Part shown: one piece after another, positions 31,322 to 47,294 of the stretch
Layout: each line of letters starts with the position of its first letter
Position numbering within the stretch: position 1 is the stretch's first letter
Notes under the pieces: model-generated
Told to the model about the DNA's origin: nothing
Seen by the model: the letters and a program-made list of their open reading frames with translations, nothing else
The model's database searches: none
Made by a program: the position numbers and the translations under genes
Assembly (NCBI RefSeq): GCF_003605195.1
Contig: NZ_QYOS01000025.1
Location: forward strand, 124,001-188,000
Direction: 5' to 3'
Source: Aurantiacibacter odishensis
Lineage (GTDB): Bacteria > Pseudomonadota > Alphaproteobacteria > Sphingomonadales > Sphingomonadaceae
Length of the DNA: 64,000 bases

Positions 31322-31966
31322 TCAATCCTCCTTATCCCCCGCAAACAGCGCCTCTGCCGCCGCGCGGCGTTCGCGCATCTTGTCGAGCTTGGCGTTGAGG
31401 CGGGCGAGCGTCTCTTCCTTGCTGGGGCGACTGGCGTGGTATTCGGCCAGCACCTGCGCCTTGATCGTCTCGTAGAGCGGGCTGCCGGGCAGCACCTGCC
31501 TGCCATAACGGTCCGCCCGGCGGCTGCGCAGGAAGAACATCACCAGCGCCTCGTTATGCCGCCGCTCGGTGCCCAGCACCTTGCCGGAGGAGACGACCAT
31601 GCGCTCCTCCCCCTCTATCGCGCGGGCTAGCGCGCAGTCCTCCAGCCGGGAGACGCCGCGATCCACCGCCATGTCCCACGCAAGCCGGAACTCCTCCGCG
31701 CCGGGCCGCTGGCGAAGCTTGTAAAGCGCCTCCAGGCTGGCCCCGATGTGGAGCGCGGCCTGCTTGACGATGCCGGTGGCGGCAAGATGGGCGATGAAGC
31801 GGCGCTGGCGATCGGGCGTGATGGAATTCCTGCGCGGAGCCGTGTGCGGCACCGGCGCGAAATCGAGCAGCGGATCACACGGCTCGACCGGCGAGGGCGG
31901 GGCGGTGACGTAGGATGTGGCTTGCGAGGGGGTGGCGCGAGGACGCCGTGGGAGATTCTTCGTCAT
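31322..31966 (-). CDS. hypothetical protein with HTH-like segment
   Basis: A 214-residue basic protein. After a Pro-rich N-terminus, residues about 50-85 look like a helix-turn-helix (PDRQRRFIAHLAATGIVKQA, then GASLEALYKLRQRPG), as in phage terminase small subunits or similar DNA-binding proteins. A charged helical C-terminus follows (KEETLARLNAKLDKMRERR). No other phage genes are nearby. Function unknown. Confidence 0.7.
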   Translation of the reverse strand: MTKNLPRRPRATPSQATSYVTAPPSPVEPCDPLLDFAPVPHTAPRRNSITPDRQRRFIAHLAATGIVKQAALHIGASLEALYKLRQRPGAEEFRLAWDMAVDRGVSRLEDCALARAIEGEERMVVSSGKVLGTERRHNEALVMFFLRSRRADRYGRQVLPGSPLYETIKAQVLAEYHASRPSKEETLARLNAKLDKMRERRAAAEALFAGDKED

Positions 31967-32342
31967 GCTCGGCGGTGGAGCAACTTACCCGCAGCGTAGG
32001 AAAGGGTTTTCTGGCTGGCGATGCTCGGCGCGCGTCAGCGCGCCGCAAGCGCGGAATCGGAGCCGAAGGCGGAGATGGCCAAAGGCCAACTGCCCGCGCG
32101 CCCGGAGCGAAGCGGAGGAAAGCCAAGTGAGCGGACGCGAACGCCGGCGCTTGAGACTAGACAAATTGATGGGTTCTTGGTCATGCGCCGGTGTGGAGCA
32201 TGGACGCTAAGTTGTAGGGAAGGGCAAAGTGATCACGCCGTATGCTTGCGCTACTTGCAATCTCGAAAGCGGCCGATGATTATGGCGACGACAGCGACGC
32301 AGATCTGGCTAGCGCACGCACTAGTTTATCACAGGAAATTAT
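31967..32342 (+). other. intergenic region: palindromic repeats, then AT-richer island edge and promoter
   Basis: The left part is GC-rich repeat DNA with hairpins CGGCGCGC/GCGCGCCG (32026-32045) and TGGCC/GGCCA (32076-32088), in the style of the element at 22198-22456. From about 32150 the composition shifts to lower GC. A likely promoter (TTGCAA, 17 nt, GATTAT, at 32255-32283) precedes the ParB-like gene. No convincing reading frame was seen. Confidence 0.5.
32255..32283 (+). promoter_or_regulatory. predicted promoter of the ParB/Mrr-like pair
   Basis: TTGCAA (32255-32260), a 17-nt spacer and GATTAT (32278-32283). This would give a leader of about 55 nt. An AGGAA ribosome site lies just before ATG 32343. 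Confidence 0.45.
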
Positions 32343-33422
32343 ATGCAAATTAAGGAACTCCCACTCGACGATTTGCTTTTGGATCCGAATAACTATCGGT
32401 TACAAGATACTGGCGGTTTCTATACAATTCCCATTGAAAAATATGCTCTTGAGCAAATTCAAAAAAACACCCGGCAAAAGCTGAAGGATGAAGGTCTTGA
32501 TTCATTAACCGACTCGATTCGTTCGAATGGCTTCCTGCCGATCGAAAGAATTGTGGTCACGCCTTACGACTATGATGACGGAAAGTATTTGGTTGTTGAG
32601 GGAAATCGTCGCGTTGCGGCTCTTATGGGATTGAGAGAGCAAGCGCGTGTCGGTGTGGACATGCATGAAGGGTTGAGCCGCGTATTCGGAGCCGTACCTT
32701 GTGTCGTATTCGAGGAAGGAGAGTATCCGCACTTCCGAGAAACTCTCATGGGAGTCCGCCACGTTGGTGGCATTAGAGAATGGGGTGGATACCAAAGGGC
32801 CAAACTGATCGCTGACCTGATTGATAAGCATGGCGTCGAGACTAATGAAGTGTCATCCCAGCTTGGTCTTCGATTGAGTGAAGTAAATCGTCGTTACAGA
32901 GCTTTCAAAGCTCTTGAACAGATGGAGGAAAGTGAGGAGTTCGGAGAGTTCGCTGATCCTTCTCAGTATCCATTATTCCACGAATTAATGTCGTCACCGA
33001 TTACGAGGAATTGGGTTGGTTGGAACGATCAAACCCTTTCATTTGACAAGTCGGAACAAGCCGAACAGTTCTTTATGCTCATTTCTCCGAGAGAGATTGA
33101 AGGGCAAAAGGCGAAAAAACCTAAGGTTCGCACCTATGGCGACGTTCGAGAGATGAAAAAGATCATTCCGAACAGCAGCGCGCTCACCATGTTGCTGGAT
33201 GAAAGTCGTACGTTCTTGGACGCTCTCACCGTTGCCCGCAAAGACGAGCTTTCAAGCAAGTGGAGAAGCGAAATTGCTGAAGCCGCGACTGCACTCGAAA
33301 AGATTGGAGCGCTCGAAGTGAAGTCATTCAAAGATGAAGACGTCGAAGCACTCGAAAACATTCGCGATATGGCCGAACAGGTACTGAATATTTATAATAC
33401 GGTAACCGCCGCCGATGGTTGA
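32343..33422 (+). CDS. ParB/sulfiredoxin-fold domain protein of a two-gene island
   Basis: A 359-residue protein in low-GC DNA. The ParB N-terminal-type domain (about 1-130) is clear: SLTDSIRSNGFLPIERIVV is the box I region, and VVEGNRRVAAL at 84-94 is the nucleotide-binding box II (GxRR). A helix-turn-helix follows at about 168-192 (NEVSSQLGLRLSEVNRRYRA). The helical C-terminus has no recognised domain. It is not chromosomal ParB: there is no ParA beside it and the layout differs. ParB-fold proteins can hydrolyse nucleotides or nick DNA. The stop overlaps the next gene by 8 bp, so the two are translationally coupled. Confidence 0.82.
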   Translation: MQIKELPLDDLLLDPNNYRLQDTGGFYTIPIEKYALEQIQKNTRQKLKDEGLDSLTDSIRSNGFLPIERIVVTPYDYDDGKYLVVEGNRRVAALMGLREQARVGVDMHEGLSRVFGAVPCVVFEEGEYPHFRETLMGVRHVGGIREWGGYQRAKLIADLIDKHGVETNEVSSQLGLRLSEVNRRYRAFKALEQMEESEEFGEFADPSQYPLFHELMSSPITRNWVGWNDQTLSFDKSEQAEQFFMLISPREIEGQKAKKPKVRTYGDVREMKKIIPNSSALTMLLDESRTFLDALTVARKDELSSKWRSEIAEAATALEKIGALEVKSFKDEDVEALENIRDMAEQVLNIYNTVTAADG

Positions 33423-34317
33423 CAATTTTGGCCGGTTGGCGGCCGAAAAGTTGGATCAATATATTGACCCTTTAGACGCTCCCCAACGTACGATTAAACT
33501 TCTTGAACGCGTCATCGTGGGCGAGGGGTGGGCCCAAGGGGTGAATGCCAAAACATTGGCTGCAGAAAGTCACTCCACCTTCGAGCGTTTCCTTCTAAAG
33601 CGGATCAGTGCGGCTGCCGAGAGCCGCAGATTATTGTCCTTCGAATTTAGCTCTGAGACCACTACAGTAGTCCAAGGCTCTTGCTTCATTTTCGAAAGCG
33701 ATGGCCAAGAAATCGCGGAATATAAGAGGCAGCGTTCAAACGCGTTGCCAATGCTTCAGACGGTTCAAGACTTATCGCCAAGAGAATTCGAGTTTTTATG
33801 CGGAGTAATTCTCGCCAAACTGGGAGTAGAAGAACCCTTCATAAGTCCGAGTAGTAATGACCAAGGAGTTGATTTTTTCGGCAAAGCGGCGTTCGGGGAC
33901 TTGGTAAAGAAGACCGTTTTGCCTGATGCCGTCGAAGAAAATTTGAAAATTTGGATTGTCGGGCAAGCAAAGAGAAAAAATGATACGAAGGTAGGAACTT
34001 CTGATTTGCGAGAGTTGGTGGGCTCCGTTGAACTTGCCAGAAGTAAAATATACTCAAGTGATAGTGAGGTGTTAGAAGGGCTTTCGCTAAGGTTATGCGA
34101 TCCGGTTTTTAGTATAATCGTCTGTTCAGGGCGTTTTACCAAGGGTAGCGAGACTCTTCTTGGTAAGGCCGGGATTATCGGTCTCGATGGAATCCAACTC
34201 TGTCAGTTTCTGTCAGATCATGGAGTTGGGAATGGAGATGATGGGTTTGAGCGCGAACTTTTGCTGTCTGAAATCAGAAGTATGGAGCAACGCGTGCAAT
34301 TCATAAAGTCTGAGTAG
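33415..34317 (+). CDS. Mrr-like restriction endonuclease domain protein
   Basis: A 300-residue protein in low-GC DNA. Residues about 1-110 are an unrecognised N-terminal domain. Residues about 118-250 match an Mrr-type PD-(D/E)xK nuclease: LSPREFEFLCGVILAKLG (E125), NDQGVDFFGKA (D153) and IVGQAKRKND (Q184, K186), the QxK form of the active site. Mrr enzymes usually cut modified or foreign DNA. With the overlapping ParB-like gene it forms a compact two-gene unit with no methyltransferase. A phage- or plasmid-defence role is inferred, not shown. Confidence 0.82.
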   Translation: MVDNFGRLAAEKLDQYIDPLDAPQRTIKLLERVIVGEGWAQGVNAKTLAAESHSTFERFLLKRISAAAESRRLLSFEFSSETTTVVQGSCFIFESDGQEIAEYKRQRSNALPMLQTVQDLSPREFEFLCGVILAKLGVEEPFISPSSNDQGVDFFGKAAFGDLVKKTVLPDAVEENLKIWIVGQAKRKNDTKVGTSDLRELVGSVELARSKIYSSDSEVLEGLSLRLCDPVFSIIVCSGRFTKGSETLLGKAGIIGLDGIQLCQFLSDHGVGNGDDGFERELLLSEIRSMEQRVQFIKSE

Positions 34318-34338
34318 GCGTTCGAGATATTGCCACCC

Positions 34339-34367
34339 TTGACCCCCCGCCCAAATCCAACTATCTG
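34339..34367 (+). promoter_or_regulatory. predicted promoter of the str operon
   Basis: TTGACC (34339-34344), a 17-nt spacer and TATCTG (34362-34367), just after the nuclease gene. If used, the rpsL leader would be about 430 nt and contain an intrinsic terminator. Confidence 0.5.
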
Positions 34368-34440
34368 CGCGCCCATCCGAGGCCGCTCTCGTAGCGAGTC
34401 CCCGGCCAGATAGAGCTGAACATTGCCGGTCATGTCCCGG

Positions 34441-34466
34441 GGCTCCCCGACAGGTGGAGCCTTTTT
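34441..34466 (+). terminator. leader terminator/attenuator upstream of rpsL
   Basis: GGCTCC (34441-34446), nine-nt loop and GGAGCC (34456-34461), followed directly by five T. It lies about 70 nt after the predicted promoter start and 330 nt before rpsL. It could end the island transcript or attenuate the str operon. Confidence 0.55.
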
Positions 34467-34548
34467 CTATTGGAGCGGAAACGCTCGGGGCAGCCGTCAA
34501 AGTAACCCGGTGCTTGCAGCGTCCGGGTGGAGCGTTTCAGGCTCGCGC

Positions 34549-34750
34549 GATGCTTCGACGCAGCTCAGGATGAGCGGTCGTATGGCGTCGCACGAACCCG
34601 ATACATTCCATCCGGTCTGCCGATGGTGCCATCCACGGGTGAAGGGTTTCTCCCTTTTTCCCGATTGTGCTGAGCTTGTCGAAGCACTGCCTTTTCTTCC
34701 TGGCTTGCGCGGGAAAGGGAAGGGCAGCCCTTCGACAAGCTCAGGGCACT
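34549..34750. repeat. sphingomonad-type interspersed repeats upstream of rpsL
   Basis: CTGAGCTTGTCGAAG (34670-34684) and its inverse CTTCGACAAGCTCAG (34730-34744) bracket an imperfect hairpin with a partly paired, GC-rich interior. A related unit GCTTCGACGCAGCTCAGGAT lies at about 34552-34571. The rest of 34318-34799 has no gene. These motifs are common intergenic repeats in sphingomonads. Confidence 0.7.
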
Positions 34751-34799
34751 CGGAAAACGGGAAGCGAAACCTCAACCCACAAAACGGTGAAGAGATTTT

Positions 34800-35171
34800 A
34801 TGCCGACTATTAACCAGCTGGTCCGCAAGCCGCGCCAGCCCATCGTCAAGAAGAGCAAGTCTGCGGCGATGGAATCCAGCCCGCAGAAGCGCGGGGTTTG
34901 CACCCGCGTCTACACGACGACCCCGAAGAAGCCGAACTCGGCGCTGCGCAAGGTTGCCAAGATCCGTCTGACCAACCAGCGCGAGATCATCGCCTACATT
35001 CCCGGCGAAGGTCACAACCTGCAGGAACACTCCGTGGTGCTGATCCGCGGCGGCCGTGTGCGCGACCTTCCCGGCGTGCGTTACCACGTGCTGCGCGGCG
35101 TGCTCGACACGCAGGGCGTGAAGGATCGCAAGCAGTCCCGTTCGAAGTACGGCGCCAAGCGTCCGAAGTAA
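34800..35171 (+). CDS. rpsL: 30S ribosomal protein S12
   Basis: Decoding-centre protein of the small subunit, 123 residues. Universal blocks are present: [39 protein letters not shown] and [18 protein letters not shown]. Residue 88 (codon 35061-35063, CGC) is Arg in [11 protein letters not shown], where E. coli has Lys; K43 is unchanged. K88R is a classic streptomycin-resistance change. It is the first gene of the str operon, with a long repeat-containing leader. Confidence 0.98.
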
Positions 35172-46898: not shown

Positions 46899-47294
46899 AT
46901 GGCTATGACCGATCCCCTGGGTGATATGCTCACCCGTATCCGCAACGGCCAGCAGGCGAAGAAGGACTCCGTCCTGTCTCCCGCTTCCAAGCTGCGTGCG
47001 AACGTGCTCGAAGTGCTTCAGCGCGAAGGCTACATCCGTGGCTACAGCGAAGACAGCAGCGGCAAGCACCCCGCACTGCGGATCGAACTGAAGTATTTCG
47101 AGGGCGAACCTGCGATCAAGCACGTTGCCCGTGTCTCCAAGCCGGGCCGCCGCATCTACTCGGGTAGCAAAGAGCTGCCGGCAGTGCGTAACGGCCTCGG
47201 CATCACCATCGTCTCGACGCCCAAGGGCGTGCTTTCGGACAACGAAGCGCGCATCGAGAACGTCGGCGGCGAAGTGCTGGCGGAGGTGTTCTGA
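46899..47294 (+). CDS. rpsH: 30S ribosomal protein S8
   Basis: 16S rRNA central-domain protein, and the spc-operon translational repressor in E. coli. It has 131 residues. Blocks: [30 protein letters not shown] [20 protein letters not shown] and [16 protein letters not shown]. The stop overlaps rplF by one base. Confidence 0.97.

Follow-up and report, generated by a model that had tools for sequence, protein, structure and literature searches.

SspE and BrxU each combine a ParB/Srx-type NTPase domain (DUF262) with an HNH nuclease, and the pairing of ParB/Srx-fold NTPase domains with nucleases is well represented among phage defense systems. In the available text of the sources, this role in defense is established (PMC4619093, PMC11662687, PMC12373910), with GmrS being assigned a ParB/Srx fold in which DGQQR is the likely NTP motif (PMC4619093). 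In DndI, the arginine of DGQQR is required for ATPase activity and full protection, and ATP turnover alters the hold of the protein on DNA (PMC11662687), and in the two-gene GmrS/GmrSD system both genes are required (PMC12373910). GmrSD and DndI are modular, with ParB/Srx-type NTPase and nuclease halves carried by one or two genes (PMC12373910, PMC11662687, PMC4619093; available text); SspE and BrxU follow the same plan. The gene pair described here would be built alike, but it has EGNRR in place of DGQQR and a PD-(D/E)XK nuclease of the Mrr type in place of HNH.

Mrr-family restriction enzymes share with the second gene of this pair an Mrr_cat core with D...QxK, although this gene adds an uncharacterized N-terminal domain and a near-constant ParB-like neighbor. 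In PDC-M38, a two-gene phage-defense candidate of PADLOC, the ParB module of component A (M38A) aligns with nearly all of the first gene, and EGNRR is constant in both; however, in M38A an AAA ATPase is fused behind the ParB module, whereas the first gene stops before it (359 aa), and the downstream gene is M38B there and an Mrr_cat nuclease without an M38B match here. Component A of PD-Lambda-5 is matched by the N-terminal ~100–190 residues of the first gene, but that system is labeled as a methyltransferase and is RM+Abi-like according to its authors (available text of PMC9519451), while our pair has no methyltransferase part. The location of the pair also recalls the core defense hotspots of P. 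aeruginosa and E. coli, in which fixed flanks enclose swapped defense cargo, albeit in other taxa (available text of PMC10250203 and PMC10121019).

PADLOC has no model for the ParB–Mrr pair, in agreement with the original prediction, which did not recognize this exact pair as a named system, and we recognized no published description of it among the matches listed in our literature searches. Text searches of the available papers found neither PDC-M38 by name nor PD-lambda-5 together with ParB. To our knowledge, no activity has been reported for any member of the pair family. The general design, a ParB/Srx sensor with a nuclease, is known; what seems to be new is an Mrr nuclease encoded in trans, together with the swap of effectors described below.

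The exchanged cassette and its two genes

The window, i.e. the whole stretch of 64,000 nucleotides that was analyzed, carries both genes on the forward strand. Gene 1 (32343..33422) encodes a ParB/Srx-type protein of 359 aa, with EGNRR at residues 86–90 and a probable helix-turn-helix behind it. Gene 2 (33415..34317) encodes an Mrr-type PD-(D/E)XK nuclease of 300 aa, in which an uncharacterized N-terminal domain (residues 1–115) lies ahead of an Mrr core formed by D153 and Q184-x-K186. The 8-bp overlap between them (33415..33422, forward strand) suggests coupled translation, and the coordinates, lengths, and overlap first described for both genes are all correct. The AT-richer island noted in the original prediction is also real, with both genes at 0.47 GC and the 1-kb windows outside 32–35 kb at 0.57–0.70, but it is narrower and more sharply edged than was thought. 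Specifically, the exchanged cassette extends from approximately 32229 to 34332 and has no blastn match (E 1e-3) in any relative (35 slot or upstream regions compared). On the left, homology extends at most to 32222 or 32228 (L082 and L086); on the right, it restarts at 34333–34339 in 19 of the 35 relatives. Gene 1 and gene 2 are the entire content of the cassette, and its upstream part (32229..32342, forward strand), also unmatched in the 35 relatives, presumably includes a promoter; a promoter and terminator scan found no more of either than in shuffled sequence.

The conserved right flank identified by blastn to relatives is the rpsL leader (34333..34799), followed by the right border of the slot, rpsL itself (ribosomal protein S12; 34800..35171, forward strand). 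One stretch of this leader (34660–34755), which contains CTTCGACAAGCTCAG, matches relatives in reverse orientation too and is thus an inverted repeat. On the other side, the slot is flanked by a gene on the reverse strand (31322..31966) whose family is labeled as terminase-small-subunit-like by its source; at the cut-offs applied (E 0.1 for the PDB), the family matches nothing in Pfam, NCBIfam, or the PDB. The pair had been described as having no methyltransferase, ParA, or phage gene beside it. The five neighbors scanned are indeed without a modification enzyme, but because close relatives of 31322–31966 are labeled "Terminase" or "Terminase small subunit" by some sources, a label that is unconfirmed, the part about phage genes is only roughly right. 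An integrase-bearing element, or one inserted at a tRNA, was also considered and rejected, as the window is tRNA-free and has no Rfam match at gathering scores, and the cassette holds two genes.

Gene 1 matches Pfam ParB_N slightly below the curated cut-off (E 1.7e-5, 25.2 bits; cut-off 26.3) and TIGR00180 likewise below its cut-off (E 1.2e-7), and both matches agree with the ParB-type N-terminal domain that had been read from the sequence. No helix-turn-helix is scored in gene 1 itself; a relative (L043) gives a weak match to HTH_ParB (E 0.014). A PDB profile search aligns GNRR of gene 1 weakly (E 0.08–0.11) onto GERR of solved Noc/ParB chains, GERR being the CTP-binding motif in ParB; neither gene 1 nor gene 2 gives a match below E 0.07 in these searches. 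The score against GmrSD_N is low (E 0.06, 13.9 bits; cut-off 33.2), with DGQQR absent and EGNRR in its place, and no HNH/DUF1524 nuclease domain is found in either gene at E 1 (Pfam). Among PADLOC models, gene 1 matches PDC-M38A best (E 2.1e-60), with residues 6–352 aligned on 12–363 of 715, and its N-terminal ~100–190 residues match 21 PD-Lambda-5_A models (best E 3.3e-15). A protein search at E 1e-3 returns 1093 homologs, query included.

Gene 2 matches Pfam Mrr_cat above the cut-off (E 6.4e-8, 33.2 bits; cut-off 21) and has 32 homologs at E 1e-3, query included. Its only PADLOC match is PDC-S02 (E 6e-6), and M38B is not matched. An alignment of 30 nucleases, including the query, shows D149, D153, Q184, K186, E126, and R107 to be invariant. 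In the wider set of 38 nucleases derived from the loci described below, R107 varies, and the other five residues are constant wherever they are covered (36–37 of the 38 sequences for D153, Q184, and K186). The Mrr-type QxK core proposed for gene 2 (D153, Q184, K186) is thus confirmed by the domain match and by its unchanging residues; free variation of these residues among homologs, which had been named as an argument against the proposal, is not observed.

Conservation of the pair and a second effector

A scan of genome contigs using an alignment of 46 ParB relatives yields 57 loci, to which we added the locus studied here, a further genome (L006), and two contigs from a viral collection for a total of 61. 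With phyla placed by hand, the 57 loci span Alpha-, Beta-, Gamma-, and Deltaproteobacteria, Actinobacteria, Chloroflexi, Acidobacteria, Verrucomicrobia, Bacillota, and Bacteroidota; the genome-contig scan with the single gene 2 sequence as query gives no matches. An Mrr gene comes directly after ParB in 38 of 40 unfused loci, our own included, so the two genes are conserved as neighbors, a point on which the original prediction could have failed. The spacing is −53 to +59 bp in 37 of the 38 pairs, and the reading frames overlap in 23 of 38 by their listed starts; these take the earliest potential start codon of a frame and may therefore be placed too far upstream. Near-identical loci (L024–L026; L049, L051, and L056–L058) are each counted singly, and therefore 38/40, and 21/21 for the fused form below, are not fully independent counts.

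The two exceptions are L061, which is cut by a contig end, and L039. The latter (466–2204) is the sole complete unfused ParB relative without Mrr next to it; there, a protein of 233 aa with hydrophobic C-terminal stretches comes next, and a PbeC-type gene adjoins. Some pairs look decayed, with split nuclease frames (L030 and L042), a split ParB (L037), or short nucleases (L020 and L036). ParB and Mrr distances correlate significantly (mirror-tree r = 0.876, a value reached by 0 of 2000 permutations; n = 30, with L020, L030, L036, L042, L037, L023, L025, and L026 omitted from the 38 as fragments or near duplicates), and EGNRR is invariant in all 39 readable unfused ParB proteins and in all 21 fused ones. 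Homologs, conservation, and co-variation exclude a chance pair of open reading frames.

Few genomes carry the pair. In a set of 61 near relatives, strong matches are present in our genome and G027 and weak ones in two more. At E 1e-20, the ParB gene is found in 2 genomes out of 396 from the order and in 1 out of 385 from the class, and each count includes our own. For the annotated collections, a home on plasmids or phages was also considered and rejected, with 2 of 72,556 plasmid records and 5 of 50,697 phage records matching in part and none of either covering 80% of the query. Two candidate viral contigs in IMG/VR carry the ParB–Mrr pair (L064, identical to L066, and L065). Elsewhere, unfused pairs occur beside known defense genes; these include type I RM subunits with a type IV enzyme (L018), Vsr with a C5 methylase (L028), and SIR2-type proteins (L022 and L035), although these neighbors were selected by eye and attest to presence rather than enrichment.

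A second form is found in 21 Bacteroidota loci, where the ParB gene encodes ~700 aa. The three fused proteins that were checked all run on into an AAA_15/AAA_21 ATPase, and a DUF3226/TOPRIM-like gene comes next in 21 of 21 loci, two of these downstream proteins being confirmed as PDC-M38B by PADLOC models. Seven of the 21 fused loci sit within a type I RM operon (hsdM-hsdS-hsdR), between hsdS and hsdR, and in one the neighbors are BrxC and a methylase of the BREX type. In a tree of 58 of the 61 loci (L061, L037, and L042 omitted), all fused proteins group in one clade (support 1.0), which is placed next to Bacillota proteins paired with Mrr (support 0.998). Fused and unfused forms have in common EGNRR, DPNN, and an M-x-x-x-H-x-x-G-x-x-x-W stretch. 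Given that the same ParB module occurs either with Mrr or with an OLD-like ATPase and a TOPRIM-like gene, we see it as one sensor module with two unrelated effectors. Such a natural swap on one conserved ParB-like sensor makes the question of what ParB/Srx NTPases sense in phage defense testable by effector exchange.

The slot beside rpsL and the probable role of the pair

We searched for both flanks of the slot in 40 genomes of the genus and read 36 slot or upstream regions, our own included; the remaining four genomes have no slot region (the flank genes are on separate contigs in G015, rpsL is unmatched in G023 and G006, and G028 has an rpsL fragment only). The terminase-like gene adjoins the slot in 30 of the 36 regions, where it and rpsL enclose a gap of 1.6–4.7 kb, and is not found at the slot in the other 6. 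Cargo genes, called by the longest-ORF rule with at least 80 aa, differ between genomes across the 30 slots compared. For example, the slot of G013, the closest relative by the terminase-like gene (92% identity), holds a 5'-nucleotidase and a P63C protein. A total of 11 slots, our own included, match a defense or candidate-defense family: PDC-S20/KAP (L071), AbiU (L073), ThsB-TIR (L075), PDC-M36A (L078), reverse transcriptases of which two members match DRT models (L079 and L092), PDC-M66A/HipA_2 (L084), AriA and AriB (PARIS-like; L086), bSEFIR (L095), and a C5 methylase with NotI (L099). Another 14 have no clear defense match; these include HATPase (twice), DUF6119, SLFN_AlbA_2, PRTase-CE, a pentapeptide protein with a nucleotidyltransferase, and L093, the shortest gap. 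A small gene set with a LuxR-type HTH recurs in the remaining 5 (L074, L076, L080, L081, and L087) and is possibly an older resident of the slot.

Single-protein PADLOC matches were obtained for L071 and ten further slot proteins. PADLOC was also run on 40 slot proteins as one alignment, where the best 25 of 210 matched families are mostly reverse-transcriptase models; as these are the best 25 only, a missing match in that scan is uninformative. The slot behaves as a defense hotspot, i.e. foreign DNA is exchanged between fixed flanks, with defense genes in sister genomes, and no hotspot map for this group was present among the matches listed in our hotspot literature searches. With cargo that differs in most genomes of the genus, it offers a ready place to search for unknown defense genes. 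As a control, we compared 36 intervals between genes of the window, all to the right of rpsL, and recorded for each the greatest length difference across six relatives wherever it could be measured; this is at most 100 bp in 25 intervals, 101–200 bp in 6, and more than 200 bp in 5 (beginning at 47156, 47939, 54903, 57657, and 58414). Left of the slot, lengths differ by kilobases among the six relatives at 8.6–10.9 kb, 13.5–13.8 kb, and 20.4–21.8 kb of the window, and the slot is therefore not its sole variable place.

Since the slot holds other genes in related bacteria, several of them known defense genes, the ParB–Mrr pair is probably an anti-phage defense system. The compact two-gene defense system that was originally proposed is upheld by the conserved neighbors, the fixed residues, the PDC-M38A match, and the defense genes in the same slot of sister genomes, while the results speak neither for nor against the plasmid exclusion offered as its alternative. 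We consider it fairly probable that this is a two-gene system against invaders, in which an NTP-driven ParB/Srx sensor works with a dedicated Mrr nuclease. By analogy with the systems above, gene 1 would do the sensing and gene 2 the cutting. Specifically, the ParB/Srx-fold protein would bind nucleotide and inspect or clamp DNA through its helix-turn-helix and C-terminal part, while the Mrr-type endonuclease would be produced in step with it by coupled translation. On meeting a feature of invading DNA, the NTP state of the sensor would change, and the nuclease would be recruited or released and cut the DNA. Defense is strongly indicated, with further backing from the co-variation of the two proteins and from the pairing of one sensor module with two effectors, while the mechanism is what we infer, including the fold, the binding of NTP, a complex of both proteins, the DNA that is targeted, and the fate of the cell. 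Several observations count against this reading: 14 of the 30 slots are without clear defense cargo and five carry the LuxR-type set, the slot is one of several variable places in the window, and the five scanned neighbors are without a modification enzyme, unlike those of several relatives. The same applies to the sequence of gene 1, with its sub-cut-off ParB_N score, its marginal E-values to Noc/ParB chains, and EGNRR instead of DGQQR.

The pair could instead be of type IV, with the N-terminal domain of the Mrr protein recognizing modified phage DNA and the ParB-like protein acting as a regulator or loader. This is unlikely in our view, though it would suit the Mrr_cat domain and the one fitting PDB similarity of the nuclease profile, 4f0p ("Restriction endonuclease"), which we take to be MspJI, a modified-cytosine enzyme. 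That similarity is weak (E 0.12, around the DxGVDFxG motif) and is equaled by an unrelated chain, STAT-4 (E 0.11); moreover, the ParB half matches the nuclease in its degree of conservation, and it is this half that recurs in the PDC-M38 form.

Rather less likely is a toxin–antitoxin-like abortive system, where the ParB-like protein would restrain a self-toxic nuclease and free it upon infection or when host restriction is blocked. The overlapping genes with the sensor first are consistent with such a system, and so is the position of the fused relatives between hsdS and hsdR (7 of 21), a place that would suit an RM guard, but no RM gene is present among the neighbors scanned in our own genome. 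A plasmid or partition device, in which the ParB-like protein would bind incoming plasmid sites for cutting or be a partition relic, draws on the ParB_N similarity and is very improbable, given the chromosomal slot, the near absence from plasmid records noted above, and a constant partner that is Mrr and not ParA, which together with the sub-cut-off ParB_N score also sets the pair apart from ParABS.

The ~50-bp element and paralogous slots

An element of ~50 bp is present in two copies at the left of the slot, one in the 5' region of the terminase-like gene (31956..32006, including the start codon and upstream sequence) and the other at the left edge of the cassette (32174..32224). In L071, L094, and L096, a further copy separates one cargo frame from the next (E 5e-8 to 4e-4), and L097, L098, and L090 have marginal extra copies (E 0.016–0.042); these are blastn E-values per region, scored without a shuffled control.

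Paralogs of the terminase-like gene also adjoin AT-rich variable cargo at a second slot in 14 genomes (L108–L121), where lepA forms the opposite border in 12 of 14 and is not present within the stretch read in the other two (L109 and L112). Read by eye, the cargo of this slot includes SIR2-like, TIR-like, and dGTPase-like proteins. Of three proteins compared with the PDB, one matches a DUF262 chain (7p9k, E 2e-6), one matches C5 methylases, and the TIR-like protein has no chain match. ParB–Mrr pairs adjoin uvrA in L106, L037, and L011; the terminase-like paralog lies opposite uvrA in the first two and is not found in L011, and L029, which has no uvrA at this position, carries a paralog after its pair. 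The link between paralogs and cargo is partial, because those of L122, L124, L125, and L126 have no long AT-rich neighbor.

More speculatively, the ParB module might be a general invader-sensor chassis with swapped, unrelated effectors, and the terminase-like genes of this bacterial family might mark the rpsL, lepA, and uvrA slots. The ~50-bp element at the 5' end of one of these genes might then act as a pac-like signal or a recombination site that lets phages or gene transfer agents (GTAs) move defense cassettes from cell to cell; we regard this combined idea as quite improbable. In our own genome, an AT-rich stretch follows uvrA (L123), and beyond it lies a weak member of the terminase-like family that tblastn did not recover. 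In the lepA slot of G024 (L110, ~1834–2430), a ParB-like frame matches gene 1 at E 2.6e-7 and, by eye, lies near a Dam-type methylase.
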